From NCBI GenBank assembly GCA_934661195.1, contig CAKUJD010000006.1:124001-188000 (forward strand): a stretch of DNA of 64,000 bases, written 5' to 3'. The notes beneath the pieces are model-generated. The model was not told the DNA's origin, did not search any database, and saw only the letters and a program-made list of their open reading frames with translations. The translations under genes were made by a program, and so were the position numbers. Positions 2,522-23,300 of the stretch are shown in pieces. This DNA is from an uncultured Muribaculaceae bacterium (GTDB lineage Bacteria > Bacteroidota > Bacteroidia > Bacteroidales > Muribaculaceae). Every line of letters starts with the position of its first letter. The first letter of the stretch is position 1.

Positions 2522-3667
2522 ATGAAGAAATTTTTACTTCTCGCTGCTACAGCAGCAATGGTTGCTTCGGCAACAGCACAGGTTCCCTGTGAAGGTACTC
2601 TGAAATTAGACTGGAAAGTGGCTAAGGACAAACTTCCCGCATGGGCCGATGCTCGTCAGGGCTTTGGCTTGAATGGTAAGATTTATATCCAAAACAAAGG
2701 CACAAAATCTATCGAGGTTTACGACCAGAACGGCAAGACCAGCGAAGTGCTGCCCACAGGCGGCCAGAACACAGCCATCTCTTACGACGAAGCCGGCAAC
2801 ATCCTGGTGTGCAACTCAGCATTCCCCAACGCGTGGAGAACTGACTCCACTAACTTCAAGATTATCGCTGCCGACGGCAAGAGTTTCAAGGACATTACAA
2901 TCAAGGCCGACGGTGCAGTGATCAATGGCCGTTGCGACTTCCTAGGCAAGGCCAGCGGTAACCTCCTGAGCGAGGACGGCGGTGTGCTTTGGGTGGTAGG
3001 CGCTACCAACACTGGCGTTGTGAAAGTGCCCGTTGCTGAGGGTGCTATCGACACCGACAATGTGTTTGAGGCAACAGTAGATGGTGCAGCTGTGGCTGCC
3101 TCATCAAGCACAGTTGTGAATGCCTTCACCGATGCTGAGGGCAACGCTAAGATGCTCTATGTGTCTCGTAGCGCCGCCCCCGTGATGCTCGAAGGCGATG
3201 AGACCCTCACCGGCACTGCAATCACTCTGCCCAACAAGGGCGCTTGCAACGGCGCATTCCCCTTCACTCTTGGCGGCTACAACCTGGTGGCTTATCCCAC
3301 TCTGCCAAACTACCTGGACGGCTTTGCAATTGCCGAGGCTGGCGCAGAAGCTCCTGTCGTTTCACATGAGGCTGAGTTCGCTGTCAATCCCAATGCAGCC
3401 CAAGTAAACTGGGTTAACGTTGAGCCCGTTGACGCACTCACTGCCAACGTTTACCAATATGTGCCCGGTGGCTACATTGCAAAATACACTTTCACCCTCA
3501 ACAAGAGCATCACTGGCGTTGACAACGCAGTGGCTGCCAAGACTGTTGCCAGCGTTAAGTATTACAACCTGGCCGGCATCGAGAGCGCAACTCCGTTCAG
3601 CGGCGTTAACGTGAAGGTTGTCAACTACACCGACGGTTCGAAGCAGGCCGTTAAGGTGGTTAAATAA
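2522..3667 (+). CDS. secreted protein with T9SS-like C-terminal sorting domain (paralogue)
   Basis: The product is 381 residues from the chosen ATG. An upstream in-frame ATG at 2480 would add a lysine-rich stretch ahead of the signal peptide (MKKFLLLAATAAMVASATAQ), so I reject it. After cleavage near residue 19 the chain is strand-rich with many GG and NG turns, consistent with a propeller-like or other all-beta fold. The last ~50 residues (TGVDNAVAAKTVASVKYYN, then TDGSKQAVKVVK) are a near copy of the tail of the preceding gene, whereas the mature domains are not obviously alike. This points to a shared export route (type IX-like) with different cargo. No catalytic residues are recognised. 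It has its own promoter and terminator. Confidence 0.85.
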   Translation: MKKFLLLAATAAMVASATAQVPCEGTLKLDWKVAKDKLPAWADARQGFGLNGKIYIQNKGTKSIEVYDQNGKTSEVLPTGGQNTAISYDEAGNILVCNSAFPNAWRTDSTNFKIIAADGKSFKDITIKADGAVINGRCDFLGKASGNLLSEDGGVLWVVGATNTGVVKVPVAEGAIDTDNVFEATVDGAAVAASSSTVVNAFTDAEGNAKMLYVSRSAAPVMLEGDETLTGTAITLPNKGACNGAFPFTLGGYNLVAYPTLPNYLDGFAIAEAGAEAPVVSHEAEFAVNPNAAQVNWVNVEPVDALTANVYQYVPGGYIAKYTFTLNKSITGVDNAVAAKTVASVKYYNLAGIESATPFSGVNVKVVNYTDGSKQAVKVVK

Positions 3668-3721
3668 TCAGGCCTAACCATCAAGGCTACGCGCAACTGA
3701 GCGCGGCCTGATCGCATACAC

Positions 3722-3760
3722 AGCGGCACTGCCCACAGCGGGCGGTGCCGCTTTTGTTTG
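3722..3760 (+). terminator. intrinsic terminator after the second secreted protein
   Basis: A 13-bp stem (3722-3734 with 3740-3752, one G:T wobble) closes a 5-nt loop and runs into TTTTGTTTG. It lies 55 nt after the stop codon at 3667. Confidence 0.9.
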
Positions 3761-3854
3761 TGCGCCGCTGGAGGGTGCCGGCAGGTTTTAAGGTTTCTAA
3801 CGTAATATATTAATAATTAACGCGTGTTTGGCGCTTGGGTTAGTCATAAAAAAT

Positions 3855-3862
3855 TAATTTTG
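3855..3862 (+). promoter_or_regulatory. -7 element upstream of the moxR/Bat operon
   Basis: TAATTTTG matches the TAnnTTTG element. The nearest TTTG upstream (3827-3830) is 24 nt away and a TTG (3835-3837) is 17 nt away, so the -33 box is imperfect. It sits about 90 nt before the moxR start. Confidence 0.45.
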
Positions 3863-3953
3863 CACCGATATAAAAAAGCAGTGTGCGGCCACCGAATTCC
3901 AGTGGCCGCGTGCGTCGTTAGATTTTGACAAAAAACAATAATAAATATCAGCT

Positions 3954-7998: not shown

Positions 7999-9063
7999 AT
8001 GTTCAGTTTTGCAAATCCGCAATATTTATATCTGCTGCTGCTCATCCCGCTGTTTGTGGGGCTGATGCTGCTGTCGCGGCTCATGCGCCGCCGCAGCCTG
8101 GCGCGCTTTGGCCGCCCGGCCGAGGTGCAGAAGCTGATGCCCGACGTGTCGGCCTACAAGCCGTGGGTGAAGCTCGGCATCGAAATGCTGGCGCTGGCCA
8201 TGGTGGTGATAGTGCTGGCGCGCCCGCGCGCCGGCGCCATGAAGACCTCCAGCAACCTAAACGGCATTGAGGTGATGATAGCCGTCGACGTGTCGAACTC
8301 GATGAAGGCATCAAGCACCGACGACCCCCAGGGCGTGAGCCGCCTGCAGCAGGCCAAGCTGATTCTTGAGAAGCTCATCGACCGCTTCAACAACGACAAG
8401 GTGGGCCTCATCGTGTTTGCCGGCAACGCATATATGCAGATGCCGCTCACCGCCGACGCCCAGTCGGCCAAGCTCTTCCTCAACGACATCAACACCAGCA
8501 TGGCCCCCACGCAGGGCACAGCCATTGGCGCTGCCATAGGCATGGCTATGAAGTCGTTTTCACACAACTCAAAGGCCCAGAAGGCCATCATCGTGATCAC
8601 CGACGGCGAAAACCACGAGGACGACGCCGTTGAGGCCGCAGCCGAGGCCCGCAAGGCCGGCGTGCAGGTGAATGTGATGGGTGTGGGCTCGACCAAGGGC
8701 GCCCCGATTCCCGACGGCGATGGCGGATACATGCGCGACGACGCCGGCCAGGTGATAAGCACCGCCCTCAACGAGGACATGGCGCAGAAGGTGGCCGACG
8801 CCGGCAAGGGCATTTGCCTCAACGGCAACGACGCCGATGCCGTGGAGCAGCTCACCGAGGCCCTGTCGAAACTGTCGAAGACGAGTCTGGCGCAGGTTAG
8901 CTACAGCAAGCACGACGAGCTGTTCCCCATATTCGCCTGGATTGCCCTGGTGCTGATAGTGGCCGGCACTTTTGTGCTCGATCGCAAGAACCAGCTGCTC
9001 AAAAAGTATAATTTCTTCTCTAAAACCACCGAAAGGAAGTCAAGCAATGAAACTAAAAAATAG
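7999..9063 (+). CDS. batB: BatB-type VWA domain membrane protein
   Basis: The 354-residue protein shares BatA architecture: N-terminal membrane segments (~9-27 and ~58-75), a VWA domain with MIDAS motif DVSNS (97-101), a GTAIGAAIGMA threonine loop and IVITDGENHEDDA, and a last membrane helix (~311-331). The overall divergence from BatA is high, so this is an old duplication. Its 3' end overlaps the start of batC by 17 nt, implying coupled translation. Family knowledge places BatA and BatB together in the cytoplasmic membrane. Confidence 0.92.
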   Translation: MFSFANPQYLYLLLLIPLFVGLMLLSRLMRRRSLARFGRPAEVQKLMPDVSAYKPWVKLGIEMLALAMVVIVLARPRAGAMKTSSNLNGIEVMIAVDVSNSMKASSTDDPQGVSRLQQAKLILEKLIDRFNNDKVGLIVFAGNAYMQMPLTADAQSAKLFLNDINTSMAPTQGTAIGAAIGMAMKSFSHNSKAQKAIIVITDGENHEDDAVEAAAEARKAGVQVNVMGVGSTKGAPIPDGDGGYMRDDAGQVISTALNEDMAQKVADAGKGICLNGNDADAVEQLTEALSKLSKTSLAQVSYSKHDELFPIFAWIALVLIVAGTFVLDRKNQLLKKYNFFSKTTERKSSNETKK

Positions 9064-9814
9064 CATGATGGCCGTGATGGCCGTGGCCCTGCTGGCCGCG
9101 GCCCCGTGCGAGGCAGGCGCGGCAGCATCGCAGCAGCAGTCGGCCTCGGCTGCCGCCACGGTCAAGAAGGAGCGCAACCACATTCGCAGCGGCAACAAGC
9201 TCTACAATGCCAAGCGCTATGCCGAGGCCGAGGTGGAATACCGCAAGGCACTGCAGGCTAATCAGCGCTCGGTGATTGCGCAATACAATCTGGCCCTGTC
9301 GCTAATTCGCCAAAGCGGCGCCTCGCAGCAGGGCAGCAAGGACAATCCAGCCTCGCAGGCCGCACAGCTGCTGCAAAACGTGGTGAAGACCGCCGGCAAC
9401 GACAAACCGCTGCAGTCGCGTGCCTACTACAACCTGGGCAACATAGCCTATGGCGCGCAGGACTACAAAAACGCGGCCGAGCTCTACAAGTGGGCGCTGC
9501 GGCTCAATCCGGCCGACAACGAGGCCCGCTACAACCTGCGCATGGCCCAGCTGAAGATGAAGGACAACAACCAGAACAAGAATCAAAACAAGCAGAACCA
9601 GAATAAGGACAAGGATAAAGACAAGGATAAAAACAAGCCGCAGCCGCAAAATCAAAAGCAGCAGCCCCAGCCGCAGTCCGACATGAGTCAGCAAAACGTC
9701 GACCAGATTTTGAAGACCATGCAAGACGAGGAGCGCGCCACGCAGCAGAAAATGAATGCCGCCAAGCAGCGCATGCAGCAGGCCGAGCGCATGCGCACGC
9801 GCAACAAGTGGTGA
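9047..9814 (+). CDS. batC: BatC-type tetratricopeptide repeat protein
   Basis: From ATG 9047 the product is 255 residues. An N-terminal signal peptide (~1-23) precedes two or three TPR units (NKLYNAKRYAEAEVEYRKAL near 45, ALRLNPADNEARYNL near 140). A very polar, low-complexity segment built from NQNK, KDKD and QPQ units (~160-205) follows, then a Gln/Arg-rich helix. This is the BatC pattern: a periplasmic TPR scaffold expected to bind Bat partners. A longer in-frame start at 8972 lies inside batB and lacks a signal peptide, so I reject it. Confidence 0.9.
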   Translation: MKLKNSMMAVMAVALLAAAPCEAGAAASQQQSASAAATVKKERNHIRSGNKLYNAKRYAEAEVEYRKALQANQRSVIAQYNLALSLIRQSGASQQGSKDNPASQAAQLLQNVVKTAGNDKPLQSRAYYNLGNIAYGAQDYKNAAELYKWALRLNPADNEARYNLRMAQLKMKDNNQNKNQNKQNQNKDKDKDKDKNKPQPQNQKQQPQPQSDMSQQNVDQILKTMQDEERATQQKMNAAKQRMQQAERMRTRNKW

Positions 9815-9837
9815 TGCCGGCACACATTATAGTAAAT

Positions 9838-11694
9838 ATGGATATGATGACTACAAGCAGATATAAATCATTTGCACTGGCACTGGCCGCGGCACTGCTC
9901 ACGGCCTTTGCCGTGAGCGCCGCACGCTTCACGGCTCACGCTCCGCGCCAGGTGGAGGTGGGCAGCGTGTTCAATGTGGTGTTTGCCCTTGAAAACGGCA
10001 GCGGCAGCGGCGTGCAGGTGCCGTCGGTGAGCGGCTTGCGCCTGCTCTATGGGCCGGCCGTGTCGCGCGGCTACTCGTCGGTCACCGTCAACGGCCGCAC
10101 CACCAGCAGCACCTCGGAGGAATACACTATGACCTACACGGCCAAGTCGCCGGGCACCTACCGCATTGGCTCGGCCTCGATCACCGTCGATGGCCGCCGC
10201 ATGACCACCAGCCCCATCACCATTCAGGTGGTGGGCAAGGGCCAGGCCGCATCGCCAGCCCGGCAGCAGGCCGCCCCGTCGGGCGCCATGGCCGGCATGC
10301 CCGCCCTCAGCAACCCCATGACGCAGTCGGCCGGACGCGAGGTGAAGGGCAGCGACCTGTTTGTGCGCATATCCATGTCGAAGGAGCATGTGTATGAGCA
10401 GGAGGCAGTGGTGTGCACCATAAAGCTCTACACCAAATATCAGGTGTCGGAGTTCATGTGCACCAAGCAGCCGTCGTTCAACGGCTTCCTCATCGAGGAA
10501 TTGCCGCTGTCGCCCTCGCTCAACAAGGTGGAGCGAGTCAACGGCCAAAACTACATGGTGGCCGAGCTCAAAAAGTGCATTCTGTATCCGCAGCAGTCGG
10601 GCCGGCTCACCATCACCTCGGGCAACTACGATGTGAAGGTGGTGCAGTACGACAACTTCCACACCCAGTTTGGCAGCATATCGCAGCCAGTCGAGAAGAA
10701 ACTGCAGGTGATGAGCAACCAGGCCTCGGTCAACATCTCGCCGCTGCCGTCGCCCAAGCCCGCCAACTTCAGCGGCGCCGTGGGTGTGTTCACCGTCACC
10801 TCGTCGGTGACCCCCTCGGCACTCAAAACCTACGCCCCGGCCACCTACAGCCTGGTGGTGAGCGGCACTGGCAACCTTAAGTACATCAAGAGTCCCGAAG
10901 TCAAGTTCCCATCGCAGTTCGACACCTACGACCCGCAGAGCAAAATCTCGGTTCAGCCCAACGGCGGCAACGTGAGTGGCACCGTACGCTTCGACTACAT
11001 GTTTATTCCGCAGTTTGTGGGCAGCTTCAAGGTGCCTGGCTTCGACTTCACATACTTCAACACCCAGTCGCAGTCCTACGTCACCGTGCACGTGCCCGGC
11101 CACAGCCTCAGCGTGGCCAAGGGAGCGGGCAAGCCGTCGAGCCACTACAAGCTGCAGAATTCCGACATACACGGCATTTTTCCCGCCTCCGACCTTGGCC
11201 TCAGCCACAGCCAGAGCCACTATGTGGCCAGTGTGGGCTACTGGCTGCTCTACGTGCTGCCGCTGCTGGCATTTGCCGCGCTGCTGGTGATGTACCGCAA
11301 GATGCTGCGCGACCACAGCAATGCCACGCTCATGCGCACGCGCCGTGCCAGCAAGGTGGCCCAGCGCCGCCTCAAGGCCGCCCGCCGCTTTATGCAGCAG
11401 GCCGACTCCAATGCCTTCTATGCCGAAGTGCTCAACGCCACTTGGGGCTATCTGAGCGACAAACTCAGCATCCCTGGTTCGGAGCTTAACAAGGACAATG
11501 TGCAGGCCGAACTTGAGGCCTATGGCGTGCCTGCCGGTATCACCGCGCGCACCCTGGCTCTGCTCGACAAGTGCGAGTTTGCGCAATATGCGCCCGAACT
11601 GGCCGGCGGCGACATGCAGCCGCTGCTCGACGAGGCCGCCGCCGTGATGGACGCGTTGGAAAGTGTGAAACGTAAAAAAACACAGCAATCATGA
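9838..11694 (+). CDS. batD: BatD-type aerotolerance protein
   Basis: The 618-residue protein has a signal peptide (~1-24 from ATG 9838), several extracytoplasmic beta domains (~25-430, including the BatD-like FVRISMSKEHVYEQEAVVC near 175), one transmembrane helix (~460-480, YWLLYVLPLLAFAALLVMY) and a basic cytoplasmic helical tail (~490-610). This is the BatD/DUF-type sensor arrangement. Its size and position between batC and batE fit the Bacteroides locus. The final ATGA overlaps the batE start at 11691. The in-frame start at 9808 would add ten residues ahead of the signal peptide and is less likely. Confidence 0.9.
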   Translation: MDMMTTSRYKSFALALAAALLTAFAVSAARFTAHAPRQVEVGSVFNVVFALENGSGSGVQVPSVSGLRLLYGPAVSRGYSSVTVNGRTTSSTSEEYTMTYTAKSPGTYRIGSASITVDGRRMTTSPITIQVVGKGQAASPARQQAAPSGAMAGMPALSNPMTQSAGREVKGSDLFVRISMSKEHVYEQEAVVCTIKLYTKYQVSEFMCTKQPSFNGFLIEELPLSPSLNKVERVNGQNYMVAELKKCILYPQQSGRLTITSGNYDVKVVQYDNFHTQFGSISQPVEKKLQVMSNQASVNISPLPSPKPANFSGAVGVFTVTSSVTPSALKTYAPATYSLVVSGTGNLKYIKSPEVKFPSQFDTYDPQSKISVQPNGGNVSGTVRFDYMFIPQFVGSFKVPGFDFTYFNTQSQSYVTVHVPGHSLSVAKGAGKPSSHYKLQNSDIHGIFPASDLGLSHSQSHYVASVGYWLLYVLPLLAFAALLVMYRKMLRDHSNATLMRTRRASKVAQRRLKAARRFMQQADSNAFYAEVLNATWGYLSDKLSIPGSELNKDNVQAELEAYGVPAGITARTLALLDKCEFAQYAPELAGGDMQPLLDEAAAVMDALESVKRKKTQQS

Positions 11695-16334: not shown

Positions 16335-16342
16335 TAAATTTG
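16335..16342 (+). promoter_or_regulatory. -7 element upstream of the acetyltransferase/SMC operon
   Basis: TAAATTTG matches TAnnTTTG and lies 31 nt before the ATG at 16373. No TTG is found at the expected -33 spacing. If real, this is the only visible promoter for the whole 7-kb cluster to 23300. Confidence 0.45.
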
Positions 16343-16372
16343 CATAAAAGAACCAACCACTACAGTAGAAAA

Positions 16373-16960
16373 ATGAAAAGCGAACTCGAAAAATGCCTTG
16401 CCGGCGAGGTGTTCAACGGCAGCGACCCCGAGCTGGCCGCCATGACCCTCACGGCCAAGCGGCTCACGCGCCAGCTCAACGACACCGACTATGCCGACGT
16501 CGAAACCCGCACCGCACTGTTGCGCCAGCTGTTTGGCAGCATGGGCAGCCGCGTGCACGTCGACACCGACTTCCACTGCGAGTACGGCCGCCACATCAGG
16601 GTGGGCAGCAACGTGATAATAAACATGAACTGCACCTTTGTCGACAACAACATAATCACCATAGGCGACAACGTGCTCATTGCCTCCAACGTGCAGATCT
16701 ACACCGCCACCCACTCGGTGATGCTCAGCGAGCGCGTCACGCCCGAGCGCCCCGCATTTTGCAACACCTACGCCCTGCCCGTGCGCATCTGTGACGGTGC
16801 CTGGATAGGCGGAGGCTCGATATTGCTGCCCGGAGTCACCATAGGCGAGGGCAGCGTGGTGGGTGCCGGCAGCGTGGTCACCCGCTCCATTCCGCCCCAC
16901 TGCGTGGCCGTGGGCAACCCCTGTCGCGTAATCCGCCACCTCCCCATCGAGCAGCCATGA
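16373..16960 (+). CDS. maltose/galactoside O-acetyltransferase family protein
   Basis: The 195-residue protein has the LbH_MAT_GAT layout: a helical N-terminus (KCLAGEVFNGSDPELAAM) and a left-handed beta-helix of hexapeptide repeats (HIRVGSNVIINMNCTFVDN through GGGSILLPGVTIGEGSVVG). The catalytic histidine is in YTATHSV. It would transfer an acetyl group from acetyl-CoA to a sugar hydroxyl. Its TGA overlaps the ATG of the next gene (16957), so it is translationally coupled to the SMC-like cluster although it has no known link with such systems. A TTG start at 16340 is possible but less likely. Confidence 0.92.
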   Translation: MKSELEKCLAGEVFNGSDPELAAMTLTAKRLTRQLNDTDYADVETRTALLRQLFGSMGSRVHVDTDFHCEYGRHIRVGSNVIINMNCTFVDNNIITIGDNVLIASNVQIYTATHSVMLSERVTPERPAFCNTYALPVRICDGAWIGGGSILLPGVTIGEGSVVGAGSVVTRSIPPHCVAVGNPCRVIRHLPIEQP

Positions 16961-18192
16961 CCCAGACAGCCCACTTCACATCGCTCGACGAGCTTCTGCG
17001 AGCCCTCCACCGCGAGCGCGCTCTGCTCGGTGCCTTGTTCAAGGACCGGAAAAAGATGTCGTTCCGCTACGACCTGGCTCGTGAACTCTCGAGCCACAGC
17101 GACGAGAGCCTCGACTTCCTTAACCGATACGGAGTGATTCGCGACTGCAACGGCCTGGTGGAACTCAGCGACGTGTATATGCGCTTCTTCGAAGAGGTGC
17201 TTGAGGTTAATGAGGAAATCAGCGTGGCCGGTGTCAAGGAGCACATCGACAGCCTCAATGCCAACATCGACTACTATTTGAGCGAAAACAACGCCGAGCG
17301 CAAGCGCGGCTATCTGCGCAGCGTGGAGCGCACGCTGCAAAACATTGCCCGCGTCACCCGCCGCAATGTGGTTGATTTGAAGCGTAACATCGACAACACG
17401 TACAAGAATGAGCCAAATTTTGTGGTTAAGCGCAAGAAGCTTGTACACCTCGACGAGAAGCGGCGGCACATAGCCTCACTCATCAGCGAATGCGAGCGCG
17501 TGATCGACGAGAAGCAGACCACTTTTTTTGCTGTAGCCATGGATGTGCAGCTAAAGTACACTGTGACCGATGTGAAATTGCAACTGCGTGAAGTGTACCA
17601 TAACCTGCTTGAACTCGACCGTCAAATCATCAACTATCTCAATCTTATTGAGTATCAAAGCCGCTTGCTGCAAAAGGTGCACCGGCTTAAGTATCTGCGC
17701 GACCAGCTGCTGCTCGACACCGGCACCAGTGTTTGTACGGTGATGGCGGCCCGCAACCCTGTGTGGCTCGAGCCCCGCAGGCGATATTCGCTCAAGGTGT
17801 CGCTGTCGGTGCTCCGCAACTCCGACGTGGGGCTGCGTGCGTTGCGCGATGCCGCCAGCGGACGGGTGAAAGACCGCTTGCGCAAGGGCAACCTTGCCGC
17901 TGCGCTTACCAGCGACGAGTTGCTTGAACAGCGGCAGCCCGTTGCCGTGGTTGATGTGGGCGAAGTGAAGAATGCCTTCATGGCCTCTGGCGACCACCTG
18001 TTTCACTTTGTGATGAACTTCTCGGGCTACAACAAGCCCATGACCACCGAAGACAAGTTGGTGGTGTTTTGCCAAATCGCAGCCCAGTATCTCGACGAAC
18101 TAAACGTGAGCGGTGAGCTGCGCGTGTGCGACGACGGCACAGAGTATTCAGTGATTTATCCTAAAAACAGCATAAACGATGCGCTACACTAA
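16957..18192 (+). CDS. JetA/MksF-like kleisin subunit of a Wadjet-type SMC system
   Basis: The 411-residue protein is largely helical with a winged-helix-like start (LRALHRERALLGALFKDRK) and long amphipathic helices from ~95 to 255, then a second globular end. No catalytic motif is seen. Its size and position as first of four genes (this, a 179-residue MksE-like protein, a 1222-residue SMC-like ATPase and a Toprim protein) fit JetA/MksF, the kleisin that bridges the SMC heads. I assign it by architecture and synteny, not by a recognised signature, so the call is weaker than that of the ATPase. It overlaps the acetyltransferase stop by 4 nt and the next start by 14 nt. Confidence 0.7.
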   Translation: MTQTAHFTSLDELLRALHRERALLGALFKDRKKMSFRYDLARELSSHSDESLDFLNRYGVIRDCNGLVELSDVYMRFFEEVLEVNEEISVAGVKEHIDSLNANIDYYLSENNAERKRGYLRSVERTLQNIARVTRRNVVDLKRNIDNTYKNEPNFVVKRKKLVHLDEKRRHIASLISECERVIDEKQTTFFAVAMDVQLKYTVTDVKLQLREVYHNLLELDRQIINYLNLIEYQSRLLQKVHRLKYLRDQLLLDTGTSVCTVMAARNPVWLEPRRRYSLKVSLSVLRNSDVGLRALRDAASGRVKDRLRKGNLAAALTSDELLEQRQPVAVVDVGEVKNAFMASGDHLFHFVMNFSGYNKPMTTEDKLVVFCQIAAQYLDELNVSGELRVCDDGTEYSVIYPKNSINDALH

Positions 18193-18718
18193 AGAAATTT
18201 TCGACATCCTCAGCCGCGGCGGCTTTGTGTCGCAGAACTCAATCGACCCTCAGCGCTCGCGCTACTACGACGCCATTGAGGACGACTTTCAAAGCTATCA
18301 GGAATACTATAGCGGCATAGGACTTGTGCTTGAGGGCGGCAACGGTTACTACTACTTTTCGCGTCCCGAGAGCAAGGTGGAGCTGACCGACAAAATTCAG
18401 CGTCTGGCGCAGTGGATCGACCGCGTTGATTTCCTTAAGACGTTCAATGGCACGTTTGGTGCCGGCTTCACATTCCGCAAGTCGAACATACTCGAGAGGT
18501 TTTCAAGCGACATCGAGCTCAAAGACAAGGCCCGCGCCCTCTATCCAGATGTGAAGACCAATGAGGAGAAAATCGACAAACTTGTGGCCGACTTGGAGCG
18601 CCAGGGGTTTGCCGAACTCGAGAATGAGCTCGACGGCACCTACAAGGTGACTTCGGCTTTCCACTACATCGAGGAGCTGATCGACTGCATCACCATCATC
18701 GACACCGAAGAAGAATAA
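18179..18718 (+). CDS. JetB/MksE-like accessory subunit
   Basis: The 179-residue acidic protein begins MRYTKEIFDILSRGGFVSQN and is predicted helical with a winged-helix character. It carries YYDAIEDDFQSYQEYYSGIG (~28-47), a YYYFSRPES hairpin and ends ITIIDTEEE. This is the form of MksE/JetB (KITE-type) subunits: an N-terminal short wHTH, a beta wing with aromatic residues and a C-terminal wHTH. The start overlaps the preceding gene by 14 nt, consistent with fixed stoichiometry. Domain identity rests on shape and position rather than strong motif matches. Confidence 0.7.
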   Translation: MRYTKEIFDILSRGGFVSQNSIDPQRSRYYDAIEDDFQSYQEYYSGIGLVLEGGNGYYYFSRPESKVELTDKIQRLAQWIDRVDFLKTFNGTFGAGFTFRKSNILERFSSDIELKDKARALYPDVKTNEEKIDKLVADLERQGFAELENELDGTYKVTSAFHYIEELIDCITIIDTEEE

Positions 18719-18754
18719 ACTCTCAACATTAAACACATTCATCAACATAACACA

Positions 18755-21700
18755 ATGAGAGCCTTACGCAAGATAGTTTTTGTTAACAGTGCGCACATCC
18801 GCTATGCCGAGGTGAAACTCGATGGCAATGTGCATTTCATAGGCACGCAGGGCGTGGGCAAGAGCACCCTGCTCAGGGCAGTGCTGTTTTTCTACAATGC
18901 CGACAAGCAGCACTTGGGCATACCCAAGGAAATGAAGTCGTTCGACGAGTTTTACCTGCCTAACGCCAATTCATATATAGTATATGAGGTTGACCACGAG
19001 CATGGCCCGTTCTCCATACTGGTGTTCCGCTCATCGGGCAGGGCCTGCTTCCGCTTTGTCGATGCACCCTACAGCCGTGAGTGGCTCATCGACGGCCATG
19101 GCGAGGTCACAGCCGATGGCAAAGTGATTCGCGAGCGTCTGGACGGCGCCCACATGAGCCGCATCATCGACCGCTACGAGCAGTACCGCGACGTTCTGTA
19201 TGGCAACCGCCAAGCTGCCGTGGGCCGTGAGTTCAAGCGGTTCGGCCTCATGGAGTCGGGCAGCTACCAGAACATTCCGCGCAGCATCCAGAATGTGTTT
19301 CTCAATTCGCGCCTCGATGCCGGCTTTATTAAAGATATCATAATCAAGTCGAAGGGCGATGATGAATCGAAAATCGACCTTGAGTATTTTCGCGGTCAGG
19401 TGTCGGGTTTTGAGCAGCAATATAAGGACATTTCATGCTGGTATAAAACCAACGCCAAGGGCTTGTCGCCAGTTAGGGTGCAGGCCGATGCCGCCGTCGA
19501 CGCCTTTCACGCGCTGATGGGCGGCAAGCGCCGTATAAGCGAGTTGTGCGGCTGTTTAAACTACTGCCTGAGGATGTCGCGTGAGCGCCTGCCCGAGGTG
19601 GAGAAGCAAATTGGTGAACTCAACGCGGCCCTCACCAGGCAGCAGCGGCTGCTCAGCGAGGAGCAGGGCAAGCATGAGAGAGAAAAGTCTAAACTCAACC
19701 AAGAGCAGGGTGTGGCCAACGACCGGCTGAAGCGCCTAAAGAGCCGCCGCGACTATTACGAGGCGCAGCACATTGCCGATGTGCTTAAGCGGTTTGGCAT
19801 GGAGGAGGTGCTTCGAAGCCGGCTCAACAGTCTTAATGGCCAGCTCAGCGGCCTCACTGAGCGCCACCGCGACATCACAGCAAAGTATGCCGACCTCATT
19901 CTGAAACTTGAATCGCAATTCGAGTCTGAAAGTCAGAAGCTCAATGCCCAAATAATTGCATTCAACGATGAGCGGCAGCGTGCCGTCGAGCGCCTTGTTG
20001 AGGCATGCGAAAAGAAAAAGACCGATGAGGAAAAGGCTTTTACCGACAAAATAGGCATAGCCCGCACTGTAATCGACGACGCTAAGAGCGCGCTGGCCGA
20101 GTGCGACAAAGAGTTGCTGAAACTGGATTATTTCGAGCCGTTCAAGGCCGATGAGGATGCCCTTGTGGCCGATATGGACAAAATGAGGCTCAGAGAAAAG
20201 GAATTGGATGGAGCGATTGCCACATGCGAGGCGCAAATAAGCCAAATCCGGGCCGAATATGAAAAGCTTGAAGCCAACGCCAATGCCGGCTTTAGCCGCC
20301 AGAAAGATGAAAAGCGACAAGAGGCCGAAGCCGTCAGGCTTGAAATTGACGAATTGGACGGGTTGCTGTCCAAGGTTGGCGGGTCGCTGTATGAGTGGCT
20401 TGAAGAGAACAAGAGCGACTGGATGCAGAGCATTGGCAAGGTGATCGATGACAAAAGTGTTCTCTACAGCACAGGGCTCAGCCCGCAGATGTCGGCCGAT
20501 GGTGGTGATTCGCTGTTTGGCGTGCAGCTCGACCTGTCGGTGCTGCCGCTGAATGTGCGCCGCCCGCAAGAGTTGAAGCAGCAAAAGGTGCGGCAAGAGA
20601 AACTGCTGCAGCAGCTCGAAGTCGAAATCACCGCCATAGGCCTGCGCCAGAAAAAGGCTGTTGACGATCTCAAGCGGCAATATGCCCCAAAGGTTAAGGA
20701 GCAGAATGCGCGCAAATCGGAATATGAAGCCGAGCTGCACGCCTTGCCACAAAAAATCAAGGCAAAGCAGCTGCAACTCGACGACCTTGTGTGCCGGTCC
20801 GAAAAATATCTGGCCGACCGACGCCAGGAGCAGATCAACATAAAGCGTGAACTCATCGAGCGTCTCAGCAAAGCCAATGGCGAACTCGACAAACTGACGG
20901 ATGAAAAGAATAAACGCCTAAAGGCCGTCGACAAGCAGTGTGCCGACGGCAAGCAGGCAGCTGCACGCCACTGCCAGCAGCGCACGGCCGATGTCGAGGC
21001 CGAGATAAAGCGGCTGAGGCTCGGCACTGAAGACGAAAAGCGTAAATTGCATCGGCAAGAGGTTGAAGAGCTCGAGGGCCGCGGCGCCAACACCGCCATG
21101 GTTGAGGAGTGCCGAGATAAAATCAAGGCCGTGCAGGACGAGTTGCAATACATTGATGGCGTGCGCGGCTTGGTTTATAAATACCGCAGCGACAAAGAGG
21201 AACTGTTCGACCACGAGCAGGACATCAAGGCTGACGTCAAGACTCTGCGCGACAAAATAGAGCTGCTTGAAGAGAAGTACCGCAAGCGCAGGCAAAAGCT
21301 CGACGGGCACATCGCCGACATTCGCAGGCAGGCAGGTGAGTTCTTGGGCGTGAAAGACCGCTTGCAGGCCGACATGCGCAAGGCTGAAGCATTCACGGGC
21401 GACGCGAAACTCTGTCCGCCGTCGCTCGAGTCGGCGCCCGAGCTGCCCACGCAAGACTCCCTTGGCGACACTGTTGATGGCCTGAAGAATGAAATCATTC
21501 TCGACCAGTCGCGCTTCGACAAGCTTAAGCGCTGCGTGAACGCGTTTAAGGCCAATTTCTCGGCCAAAAACACGTTTAACTTTCGCATGGAGCTTGACTC
21601 CGAAACCGACTATACTGCGTTTGCCAGCAATCTTGAAGATTTCATGGTAAACAACAAAATTGAGGAGTATCGCAGCCGCACCAGCGCGCGCTACGTCGAC

Positions 21701-22423
21701 ATCCTTAATCGGCTTTCTAACGAAATGGGCGAGCTGTCGCGCCACGAGTCGGATGTTGACAAGGTAATCAACGACATCAACCGCGACTTCCGCGAGCGCA
21801 ATTTCGTGGGTGTGATAAAGCAGATTTCAATCAGAAATGTGCCTTCGTCCGACAAAATGGTGCAGCTAATGAGGCTTATCAAGGACTTTAGCGACAACAG
21901 CAGTTTAGACATGGGTGAGATGAATCTGTTTTCCACCGCCAACCGCGACGACACCAACCGTAAGGCTGTGGGCCACTTGCTCGACTTCATGAAGGCTCTA
22001 AACGACGAGCCGCAACGCAACGCGCTCTCGCTGTCCGACTTGTTCCAGCTGCAATTCCGCATAGTGGAGAACGACAACGACACCGGCTGGGCCGACAAAC
22101 TGTCGCACGTGGGCAGCGAGGGCACCGACACGCTGGTGAAAGCCATGATCAACATTATGCTTATCAATGTGTTCAAGGACAAAGCCTGCCGCCGCTTTGG
22201 CGACTTCCGCATCCACTGCATGATGGACGAAATTGGCAAGCTGCACCCGCAGAATGTGAAGGGCATACTCGACTTCGCCAACGCGCGCAACATTTTGCTC
22301 ATCAACTCTTCGCCCACCACCTATAATGTGTCGAACTACCGATACACCTATTTGCTTAGCAAAGATGCCAAGTCGCAAACCAAGGTTCAACTGTTAGTGT
22401 CATCAAGCAACAATGAAAATTAA
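18755..22423 (+). CDS. JetC/MksB-like SMC ATPase
   Basis: The 1222-residue protein has the SMC plan: an N-terminal ATPase half with Walker A GTQGVGKST (30-38), a long coiled coil (~280-520), a short globular hinge (~545-615, SLYEWLEENKSDWMQSIGKV), a return coiled coil (~620-930) and a C-terminal ATPase half. In the latter, the Walker B equivalent ends MMDE (D1158, E1159). The ABC signature is unusual: HVGSEGTDTL (~1118-1127) rather than LSGGE/Q. The gene follows jetB-like by 36 nt and overlaps the Toprim gene by 11 nt. In Wadjet systems JetC with JetA/B extrudes DNA loops and triggers JetD to cleave small circular plasmids. DUF3584-type ATPases are the closest family I can name. Confidence 0.88.
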   Translation: MRALRKIVFVNSAHIRYAEVKLDGNVHFIGTQGVGKSTLLRAVLFFYNADKQHLGIPKEMKSFDEFYLPNANSYIVYEVDHEHGPFSILVFRSSGRACFRFVDAPYSREWLIDGHGEVTADGKVIRERLDGAHMSRIIDRYEQYRDVLYGNRQAAVGREFKRFGLMESGSYQNIPRSIQNVFLNSRLDAGFIKDIIIKSKGDDESKIDLEYFRGQVSGFEQQYKDISCWYKTNAKGLSPVRVQADAAVDAFHALMGGKRRISELCGCLNYCLRMSRERLPEVEKQIGELNAALTRQQRLLSEEQGKHEREKSKLNQEQGVANDRLKRLKSRRDYYEAQHIADVLKRFGMEEVLRSRLNSLNGQLSGLTERHRDITAKYADLILKLESQFESESQKLNAQIIAFNDERQRAVERLVEACEKKKTDEEKAFTDKIGIARTVIDDAKSALAECDKELLKLDYFEPFKADEDALVADMDKMRLREKELDGAIATCEAQISQIRAEYEKLEANANAGFSRQKDEKRQEAEAVRLEIDELDGLLSKVGGSLYEWLEENKSDWMQSIGKVIDDKSVLYSTGLSPQMSADGGDSLFGVQLDLSVLPLNVRRPQELKQQKVRQEKLLQQLEVEITAIGLRQKKAVDDLKRQYAPKVKEQNARKSEYEAELHALPQKIKAKQLQLDDLVCRSEKYLADRRQEQINIKRELIERLSKANGELDKLTDEKNKRLKAVDKQCADGKQAAARHCQQRTADVEAEIKRLRLGTEDEKRKLHRQEVEELEGRGANTAMVEECRDKIKAVQDELQYIDGVRGLVYKYRSDKEELFDHEQDIKADVKTLRDKIELLEEKYRKRRQKLDGHIADIRRQAGEFLGVKDRLQADMRKAEAFTGDAKLCPPSLESAPELPTQDSLGDTVDGLKNEIILDQSRFDKLKRCVNAFKANFSAKNTFNFRMELDSETDYTAFASNLEDFMVNNKIEEYRSRTSARYVDILNRLSNEMGELSRHESDVDKVINDINRDFRERNFVGVIKQISIRNVPSSDKMVQLMRLIKDFSDNSSLDMGEMNLFSTANRDDTNRKAVGHLLDFMKALNDEPQRNALSLSDLFQLQFRIVENDNDTGWADKLSHVGSEGTDTLVKAMINIMLINVFKDKACRRFGDFRIHCMMDEIGKLHPQNVKGILDFANARNILLINSSPTTYNVSNYRYTYLLSKDAKSQTKVQLLVSSSNNEN

Positions 22424-23300
22424 ACTCACACCCTCACTTGTCGAAAAACTGATTCTGCTGCGCGATGGCGGCACCCTGGCGGCCAGCTCGCTGCGTGGCG
22501 AGTGGGTGGAGTCGCTACTGCGCGAAGGCGTGCTCGCCAGCATCAACAATGGCAGCCGTCGGCAGTTGCGCTCATCGGCGAGTCCCGCAGCCTTCCAGCA
22601 GGCGCTGGCCGGCATCGACGACGCTCTTGGCAACCTGGATATGGCGCGCAGTATCTTGTCGGCCGATAGCGCATCGCGCGCCAGCCAGGCTGCCGGCACC
22701 GGCAACTCCAAAATAAAGAAGTCGCGCTCTTGCCCCGGTTTCCCCGTCAACTCCTACCAGCCGATAGCATGCAGGCTCAACGGCCGCGGCATAACTGTGT
22801 GCCCCGCCGAAGGCAGTTTCCTTTTCATTGCCGACTGGGAGCGATTCGAGATTTCCCGCGATGCGGTGGTAGTGGGCGTTGAGAACATGGACAATTTCCG
22901 CCTCATTGCCCGTCAGCGCCAGCTTATGGAGGCCGAAGTGTCGGCCACTGCTCCGCTGTTGTTCGTGTCGCGCTATCCGCAATCCAAGGACTTGCACAAA
23001 TGGCTGCAGCGCATACCTAACCGATACGTCCATTTCGGCGATTTCGATCTGGCCGGCATCAATATCTTCATCACCGAGTTTCAGCACCATTTAGGCTCTC
23101 GCGCCTCACTCTTAATCCCAGCCGACATCAGCAGTCGCCTTGCGCACGGTTCGCGCGACCGCTACGTGGACCAGTATGCGCGCTTCGCCCGCCTGACTTC
23201 CAGCGACCCGCGCCTCCAGGCGCTCATCACCCAAATCCACACCCACGGCCGCTGCTACGACCAAGAGGGCTACATCAGCGAAGCCGGTGACGCCGGTTAG
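22413..23300 (+). CDS. JetD/MksG-like Toprim nuclease, compact form
   Basis: The 295-residue protein starts with a winged-helix-like domain (~1-65, TPSLVEKLILLRDGGTLAAS), a low-complexity linker (~85-110) and a Toprim domain. The Toprim acidic residues are E157 (GVENMDNF) and D210/D212 (GDFDLAG), and the C-terminal YDQEGYI (E285) matches the last motif of JetD proteins. JetD is the topoisomerase VI-like nuclease of Wadjet. This copy is much shorter than the usual ~380-400 residues, apparently lacking part of the N-terminal arm. It overlaps the ATPase gene by 11 nt. Its stop overlaps that of the convergent hydrolase by two bases. Confidence 0.82.
   Translation: MKIKLTPSLVEKLILLRDGGTLAASSLRGEWVESLLREGVLASINNGSRRQLRSSASPAAFQQALAGIDDALGNLDMARSILSADSASRASQAAGTGNSKIKKSRSCPGFPVNSYQPIACRLNGRGITVCPAEGSFLFIADWERFEISRDAVVVGVENMDNFRLIARQRQLMEAEVSATAPLLFVSRYPQSKDLHKWLQRIPNRYVHFGDFDLAGINIFITEFQHHLGSRASLLIPADISSRLAHGSRDRYVDQYARFARLTSSDPRLQALITQIHTHGRCYDQEGYISEAGDAG

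Follow-up and report, generated by a model that had tools for sequence, protein, structure and literature searches.

A nuclease-armed SMC operon in the Bacteroidales as a candidate branch of MksBEFG/Wadjet-like plasmid defense

The window analyzed here is a 64,000-nucleotide stretch of DNA from an uncultured Muribaculaceae bacterium. It holds four forward-strand open reading frames (ORFs) in the order putative kleisin, KITE, structural maintenance of chromosomes (SMC) ATPase and nuclease, encoding proteins of 411, 179, 1222 and 295 amino acids. An initial annotation, made from the sequence alone, had described overlapping genes with the order and sizes of JetA-JetB-JetC-JetD, and all four ORFs were indeed present as claimed, at the coordinates listed below. 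Overlap was found for genes 1 and 2 (14 nucleotides, nt) and genes 3 and 4 (11 nt); genes 2 and 3 are instead separated by a 36-nt gap. All four genes are open, full length and retain their conserved motifs. In our analysis this is a real, intact, nuclease-armed SMC operon for which plasmid defense is the most likely function.

16957..18192, + strand: gene 1, putative MksF/JetA-like kleisin, 411 aa (ORF; AlphaFold 2 model, pLDDT 77; Foldseek matches to JetA, then MukF)
18179..18718, + strand: gene 2, MksE/JetB-like KITE protein, 179 aa (Pfam MksE PF21980, E=2.9e-41)
18755..22423, + strand: gene 3, MksB/JetC-like SMC ATPase, 1222 aa (Pfam DUF3584 PF12128, E=4.9e-60)
22413..23300, + strand: gene 4, compact MksG/JetD-like nuclease, 295 aa (winged helix at about residues 1-90, Toprim at about 105-291)
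18842..18868, + strand: SMC Walker A, residues 30-38 (GTQGVGKST; alignment A4, 20 sequences)
22115..22129, + strand: SMC ABC-signature-like stretch, residues 1121-1125 (S-x-GTD; S1121, G1123, T1124 and D1125 invariant in A4)
22226..22231, + strand: SMC Walker B Asp-Glu, D1158/E1159 (invariant in the 20 SMCs of A4)
22881..22883, + strand: Toprim catalytic Glu, E157 (109 of 109 sequences)
23040..23048, + strand: Toprim D210-x-D212 metal-binding motif (both Asp in 109 of 109 sequences)
23262..23267, + strand: C-terminal Q284-E285 motif (Q284 and E285 in 109 of 109 sequences, [DE]-Q-E in 107 of 109)

Profile searches and predicted folds support the Wadjet/MksBEFG-like interpretation that had been proposed. 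The DUF3584 match of the third protein spans residues 18-1189 and places the ATPase in the SMC/MksB/DUF3584 superfamily. Within alignment A4, G30, T31, Q32, G33, V34, G35 and K36 of the Walker A motif are invariant and S37 and T38 nearly so, and the S-x-GTD stretch probably represents the ABC signature motif. Judged by its sequence, the protein is a MukB/DUF3584-type SMC with intact ATPase motifs, although the MukB family itself was absent from its Pfam matches at E<=1, which comprised DUF3584 and weak general P-loop families. Its score against SMC_prok_B was 12.1 bits (cut-off 567), below that of an SMC-ScpAB-type protein. The 179-residue protein is of the MksE type by its Pfam profile (142 bits against a cut-off of 27), which identifies it as the KITE subunit. 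The first protein matched no Pfam family above cut-off. Its AlphaFold 2 model, of moderate confidence, has helix/strand parts at both termini, the N-terminal one short, joined by a long helical middle, and Foldseek returned the JetA chains 8q72_E and 8as8_E on top with MukF next, in keeping with a JetA/kleisin-type protein. VIA-align also matched STAT and syntaxin bundles to this model, so its match list does not identify a kleisin.

The fourth protein matched Pfam DUF7281 (E=3.9e-11), and its predicted structure (pLDDT 93.8) has the Toprim fold of MksG, topoisomerase VI-A, JetD and Spo11, bearing out the Toprim/JetD assignment. E157, D210 and D212 sit where they had been placed and are invariant both in 32 of 32 aligned sequences and in the wider set of 109, which includes the window, counts a few genomes twice (reached by two routes) and leaves out four homologues cut by contig ends. 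The C-terminal Q284-E285 motif is possibly the counterpart of MksG E349/E351, a pairing proposed without an alignment.

We located further copies with six exact SMC peptide patterns, scanned against a single genome from each species; this yielded 79 loci, among them those of the laboratory strains B. xylanisolvens XB1A (L018) and B. finegoldii DSM 17565 (L028). By tblastn, 66 of the 79 carry all four genes in the same order, a recurrence well above what chance would give, and 56 of the 79 are intact by length criteria. The other 13 keep the same order and lack the nuclease (five), lack the kleisin (three) or consist of SMC and nuclease only (five), and most lie on contigs that end inside the operon. 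Where the nuclease is missing, L040 and L061 end at a contig edge with the start of the nuclease gene, L062 and L071 break off within the SMC gene, and L073 has only a 25-residue nuclease remnant past its SMC gene. A close operon relative, with an SMC about 50% identical, lies on a metagenome-assembled genome (MAG) contig labeled Lentisphaeria (L012), from either a mislabeled bin or a transfer.

Because the 79 loci were picked by similarity, we added samples chosen independently of the query, each with one genome per species: 121 genomes from the family of B. xylanisolvens (G001), taken as Bacteroidaceae, and 198 from the order of a Muribaculaceae MAG (G011), taken as Bacteroidales. MksE was found in 30 of the 121 Bacteroidaceae genomes (28 strong, two weak only) and DUF3584 above cut-off in 28, while DUF7281 was found in 18 (15 above cut-off); this profile overlooks divergent members, that of G001 among them. 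The nuclease is present in 26 of the 31 strong-MksE Bacteroidaceae loci and absent from L129, L139, L144 and L146; L159 is cut by a contig end. Three genomes (G256, G270 and G318) have two window-type operons each, and in four genomes the window type occurs beside type I-like JetABC. Among the 198 Bacteroidales genomes, 24 contain MksE, 22 of them above cut-off. We inspected 20 of the 29 MksE places in this sample; 14 were window-type and six (L180-L185) were not, with L183-L185 matching type I JetA-C. Ten of the 14 window-type places have the nuclease and L171 lacks it, while the SMC gene is cut short in L168 and L172, and L170 shows kleisin and KITE but no SMC on a short contig. The operon is thus accessory and patchily spread in Bacteroidales and Bacteroidaceae. 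Across a phylum sample of Bacteroidota, MksE occurs in 28 of 198 genomes, 25 of which also have ScpA. In about twenty Bacteroidota genomes (L086-L093, for example), ScpA is accompanied by an MksE relative of greater length, with open frames of 223-262 aa.

The window operon lies between genes for a maltose-type acetyltransferase, glyoxalase, FKBP and Usp on one side and a metallo-hydrolase, HPPK and Tex on the other, and its surroundings are of the housekeeping kind, as the initial annotation had stated. G+C content is 53-55% in genes 1-3, 61% in the nuclease gene and 59-60% in the surroundings. As a block, these neighbors occur in none of the 79 loci; five loci each match just one of them, and only distantly. 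When flanking genes were called by the rough criterion of ORF length, few recurred: the commonest cluster appears in eight loci, and some of the repeats come from close relatives, the Bacteroides group for example. The comparison of synteny across Bacteroidales that the initial annotation had suggested gave sites that mostly differ between loci. In the SMC tree, Prevotella-labeled rows are scattered over several deep clades. Short of a formal test of transfer, the differing sites and this tree fit an exchanged defense operon. An empty site was not shown, as 30 Bacteroidaceae Tex loci (about 1.5 kb each side, best identity 63%) lacked the window's adjacent genes.

Nearest-neighbor proteins (120 scanned of 127 chosen) included RhuM (6), Schlafen AlbA_2 (5), HIT (5) and type III restriction ResIII (4), as well as Schlafen-helicase genes. 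Among the first 25 of 180 PADLOC families listed for these proteins, the candidates PDC-S05 and PDC-S23 were matched by six and five of the proteins. AlbA-like genes adjoin the operon in eight loci. In L030 a Schlafen AlbA_2 + HATPase_c_4 gene (8439-9983) lies between the KITE and SMC genes, and L031 has a matching 1.6 kb gap; in L170 such a gene (2727-3950) directly follows the KITE gene, and L176 and L177 have gaps of about 1 kb between KITE and SMC. This gene is possibly an accessory module of the operon.

We rejected the operon as a plasmid-borne system. A tblastn search of plasmid records matched Phocaeicola and Parabacteroides 'plasmids', but 'plasmid 9' carries rplU, rpmA, gcvT and dapF, and G270 has, on a contig of 3.1 Mb, loci nearly identical to both Phocaeicola copies, so these records were treated as misassembled chromosome. 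The search also matched B. finegoldii, Persicobacter and others; the rejection covers the Phocaeicola and Parabacteroides records. The PLSDB 'plasmid' records L125, L126 and L127 (strains TSDC17.2-1.1) resemble chromosomal pieces, one with ribosomal protein genes. Phage records gave no match to the operon.

JetABCD and MksBEFG extrude DNA loops, stall on small circles and then release their Toprim nuclease. By analogy, the window operon would pair an SMC motor with a dedicated Toprim nuclease. The motor would load on DNA and use ATP hydrolysis to drive loop extrusion; on a small circle, extrusion would run to completion and the motor would stall, whereupon the nuclease, inactive until then, would make a double-strand break. 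Plasmids would be lost and the long chromosome would escape. Characterized relatives act on plasmids, according to parts of two sources (PMC10123090, PMC10586767). We think it probable that the window encodes an accessory, horizontally spread anti-plasmid defense operon belonging to a branch separate from PADLOC Wadjet types I-III.

Several observations weigh against this reading. At the level of the proteins, JetD_C matched the window nuclease only at E=0.02 (14.7 bits against a cut-off of 22) and was matched in 4 of 32 nuclease sequences (best E 0.0053); Pfam gave no DUF3322 or DUF2220 match in the window nuclease, which is also 70-85 residues shorter than the JetD chains compared. Profiles of alignments A2-A4 searched against PDB returned chance or coiled-coil matches only and no Wadjet chain. 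At the level of the locus, no mobile-element sign was seen at the window operon. The acetyltransferase gene (16340-16960) overlaps the start of the kleisin gene by 4 nt, so the operon may be translated together with a host gene. Not all flank families are of the defense kind (HIT, methyltransferases and Hsp70 are not), one branch retains a conserved site, and the neighbor-family counts stand without a random-gene background. Finally, Rep_3 plasmid-replication genes were found more often, and not less often, in genomes that carry the operon (8 of 28) than in those that do not (6 of 93; Fisher p=0.004), counted at E<=0.001 with two of the 14 positive genomes below the family cut-off and with lineage and assembly quality as confounders. 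Plasmid depletion with the operon thus went the opposite way, giving no support to the simple version of plasmid defense. Plasmid-rich lineages may simply carry more defense, or assembly quality may differ.

Because Rep_3 genes coexist with the operon, plasmids may not be its main target. The same machinery could act instead, or also, on other circular or closed mobile DNA such as integrative-element circles and phage replication forms, and some neighbors are candidate phage-defense genes. We regard this as unlikely, since the characterized relatives cited above target plasmids in the parts of those sources that bear on them.

A role as resident condensin, which the initial annotation had offered as an alternative, would have the complex organize the chromosome in Bacteroidales that lack SMC-ScpAB, and the nuclease subunit would serve regulation or repair. 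ScpA was found in none of the 121 Bacteroidaceae and none of the 198 Bacteroidales genomes, compared with 170 of 198 genomes across the phylum sample. SMC above cut-off was likewise found in none of 178 Bacteroidales (at a threshold of 1e-100 and with three candidates scored in each genome, a search that detected 10 of 14 control genomes) and in none of the 12 genomes of the first loci, all 12 of which gave weaker matches to coiled-coil or head regions, the best at 49.8 bits (cut-off 567). Parts of a Hi-C paper (PMC10197239) report that neither Bacteroides caecimuris nor Muribaculum intestinale has a known condensin homologue, and that B. caecimuris shows a weak secondary diagonal, a sign of arm alignment. 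Operons without a nuclease, in 4 of 31 Bacteroidaceae loci and amid housekeeping genes in Parabacteroides distasonis, also favor such a role. However, the operon was found in only 28 of 121 Bacteroidaceae and 22 of 198 Bacteroidales genomes, its sites mostly differ, and the window copy keeps an intact nuclease. Since neither ScpA nor SMC above cut-off turned up in the sampled Bacteroidales and MksE is present in few, the Mks operon does not generally replace SMC-ScpAB. Most sampled Bacteroidales lack ScpA, SMC above cut-off and MksE alike. A general condensin role was rejected because most sampled genomes lack the operon and its neighbors mostly differ between loci; it may hold for single lineages, especially nuclease-less ones. 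For the window operon we consider it quite unlikely.

The nuclease-less operons deserve separate consideration. In a tree of 68 SMCs, seven such operons are nested among armed ones and need five changes, with the starred branches forcing at least four. L139, which has no nuclease, shares about 89% DNA identity with the nuclease-bearing L147 and L127 across the upstream genes and F-E-B, up to the last bases of the SMC gene, forming a near-identical syntenic pair that is armed and disarmed at the same locus. A short nuclease match in L139 mostly overlaps the SMC gene end, and we did not take it for a relic. The nuclease-less operon of P. distasonis sits between an oxidoreductase gene and the NAD synthase gene. 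The nesting suggests that nuclease loss occurred repeatedly, with its direction unproven, and the nuclease-less copies may have been reused as condensins. A more tentative and rather unlikely extension is that Bacteroidales, after losing SMC-ScpAB, repeatedly disarm SMC defense operons into condensins, and that armed copies such as that of the window already serve the chromosome, as the sole recognized SMC loop extruder of the cell, and police plasmids as well.

A decayed or selfish island without current function is very improbable: some relatives have shortened genes (L066, L067, L014 and L054, with assembly errors possible) and L073 has lost most of its nuclease, but the window genes are intact as described above and protein searches returned at least 4118 and at least 2247 homologues at E<=0.001.

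The operon, usually nuclease-armed and barely seen by PADLOC, is present in between about a tenth and a quarter of the Bacteroidales and Bacteroidaceae genomes sampled. Plasmid uptake by its hosts, which are dominant gut bacteria, is important for gene transfer and engineering. The operon is interesting chiefly because these hosts lack detected SMC-ScpAB and because the nuclease was apparently lost repeatedly. Together they provide a natural series with and without the nuclease, once at the same locus (L139 and L127/L147), which brings two questions within reach of testing: whether loss of JetD turned Wadjet into condensin-like MksBEF, as raised in part of PMC10586767, and what organizes Bacteroides chromosomes, as raised in part of PMC10197239.

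Petrushenko et al. 2011 reportedly defined MksB, and that paper lies outside the open full texts that we searched, among which no paper was found on MksB together with Wadjet in Bacteroidetes, on MksBEF in Bacteroidales or on DUF7281. The parts of PMC13342612, PMC12153180 and PMC9523054 covered do not describe a window-type system. PADLOC models matched the window SMC weakly (JetC1 5.3e-6, best stretch residues 1-54; ATPase-Toprim_I-B 6.3e-5; AriA 0.0013), as they did the nuclease (JetD1 6.8e-4), and the JetA and JetB models gave no match to genes 1 and 2 at E<=1. At E<=0.1, all but one of 32 nuclease sequences are reached by a JetD1 model (best 1.5e-5). As a positive control, the Bacteroidaceae locus L160 was recognized in full (JetA1 8.1e-191, JetB1 1.4e-58, JetC1 0, JetD1 2.7e-147). 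The weak-MksE loci L161-L165 are 47-82% identical to the JetA, JetB and JetC of L160, with JetD matched in L161 only; PADLOC confirmed JetA1, JetB1 and JetC1 in L162, and no JetD match was found in the five ORFs downstream of JetC in L162-L165. These four loci look like type I JetABC without an adjacent recognized JetD, and their genomes also hold a window-type operon. By these comparisons the window type is a distinct branch, one that occurs alongside type I genes in some genomes. The earlier suggestion of a divergent Bacteroidales branch is borne out by the weak PADLOC matches and by the close relatives found, nearly all of which are labeled Bacteroidales; SMC relatives at 27-33% identity occur in Persicobacter too. 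By sequence, the operon has the gene content and catalytic residues of MksBEFG, but its sequence domains place it outside MksG/JetD proper and outside PADLOC types I-III. We have filed it as a new, separate MksBEFG branch that probably works like Wadjet.

The operon resembles Wadjet type I JetABCD in gene order and roles, in its top Foldseek matches to JetA and in its weak JetC1 and JetD1 profile matches, and differs from it in that genes 1 and 2 miss the JetA and JetB models, whereas type I L160 matches all four models at E<=1.4e-58. Compared with Corynebacterium glutamicum MksBEFG (PMC10123090), the window nuclease is compact at 295 aa, with a short winged helix, DUF7281 and no DUF3322 or DUF2220 match; C. 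glutamicum also has SMC-ScpAB, none of which was found in the order of the window's host. Unlike topoisomerase VI-A and Spo11, the nuclease is encoded in an SMC operon with no topoisomerase B partner there. Pseudomonas aeruginosa MksBEF shares the same KITE and SMC families and, like some Bacteroidales relatives, has no nuclease, a state likely derived through loss of JetD according to part of a review (PMC10586767); in contrast, the window operon retains its nuclease intact.

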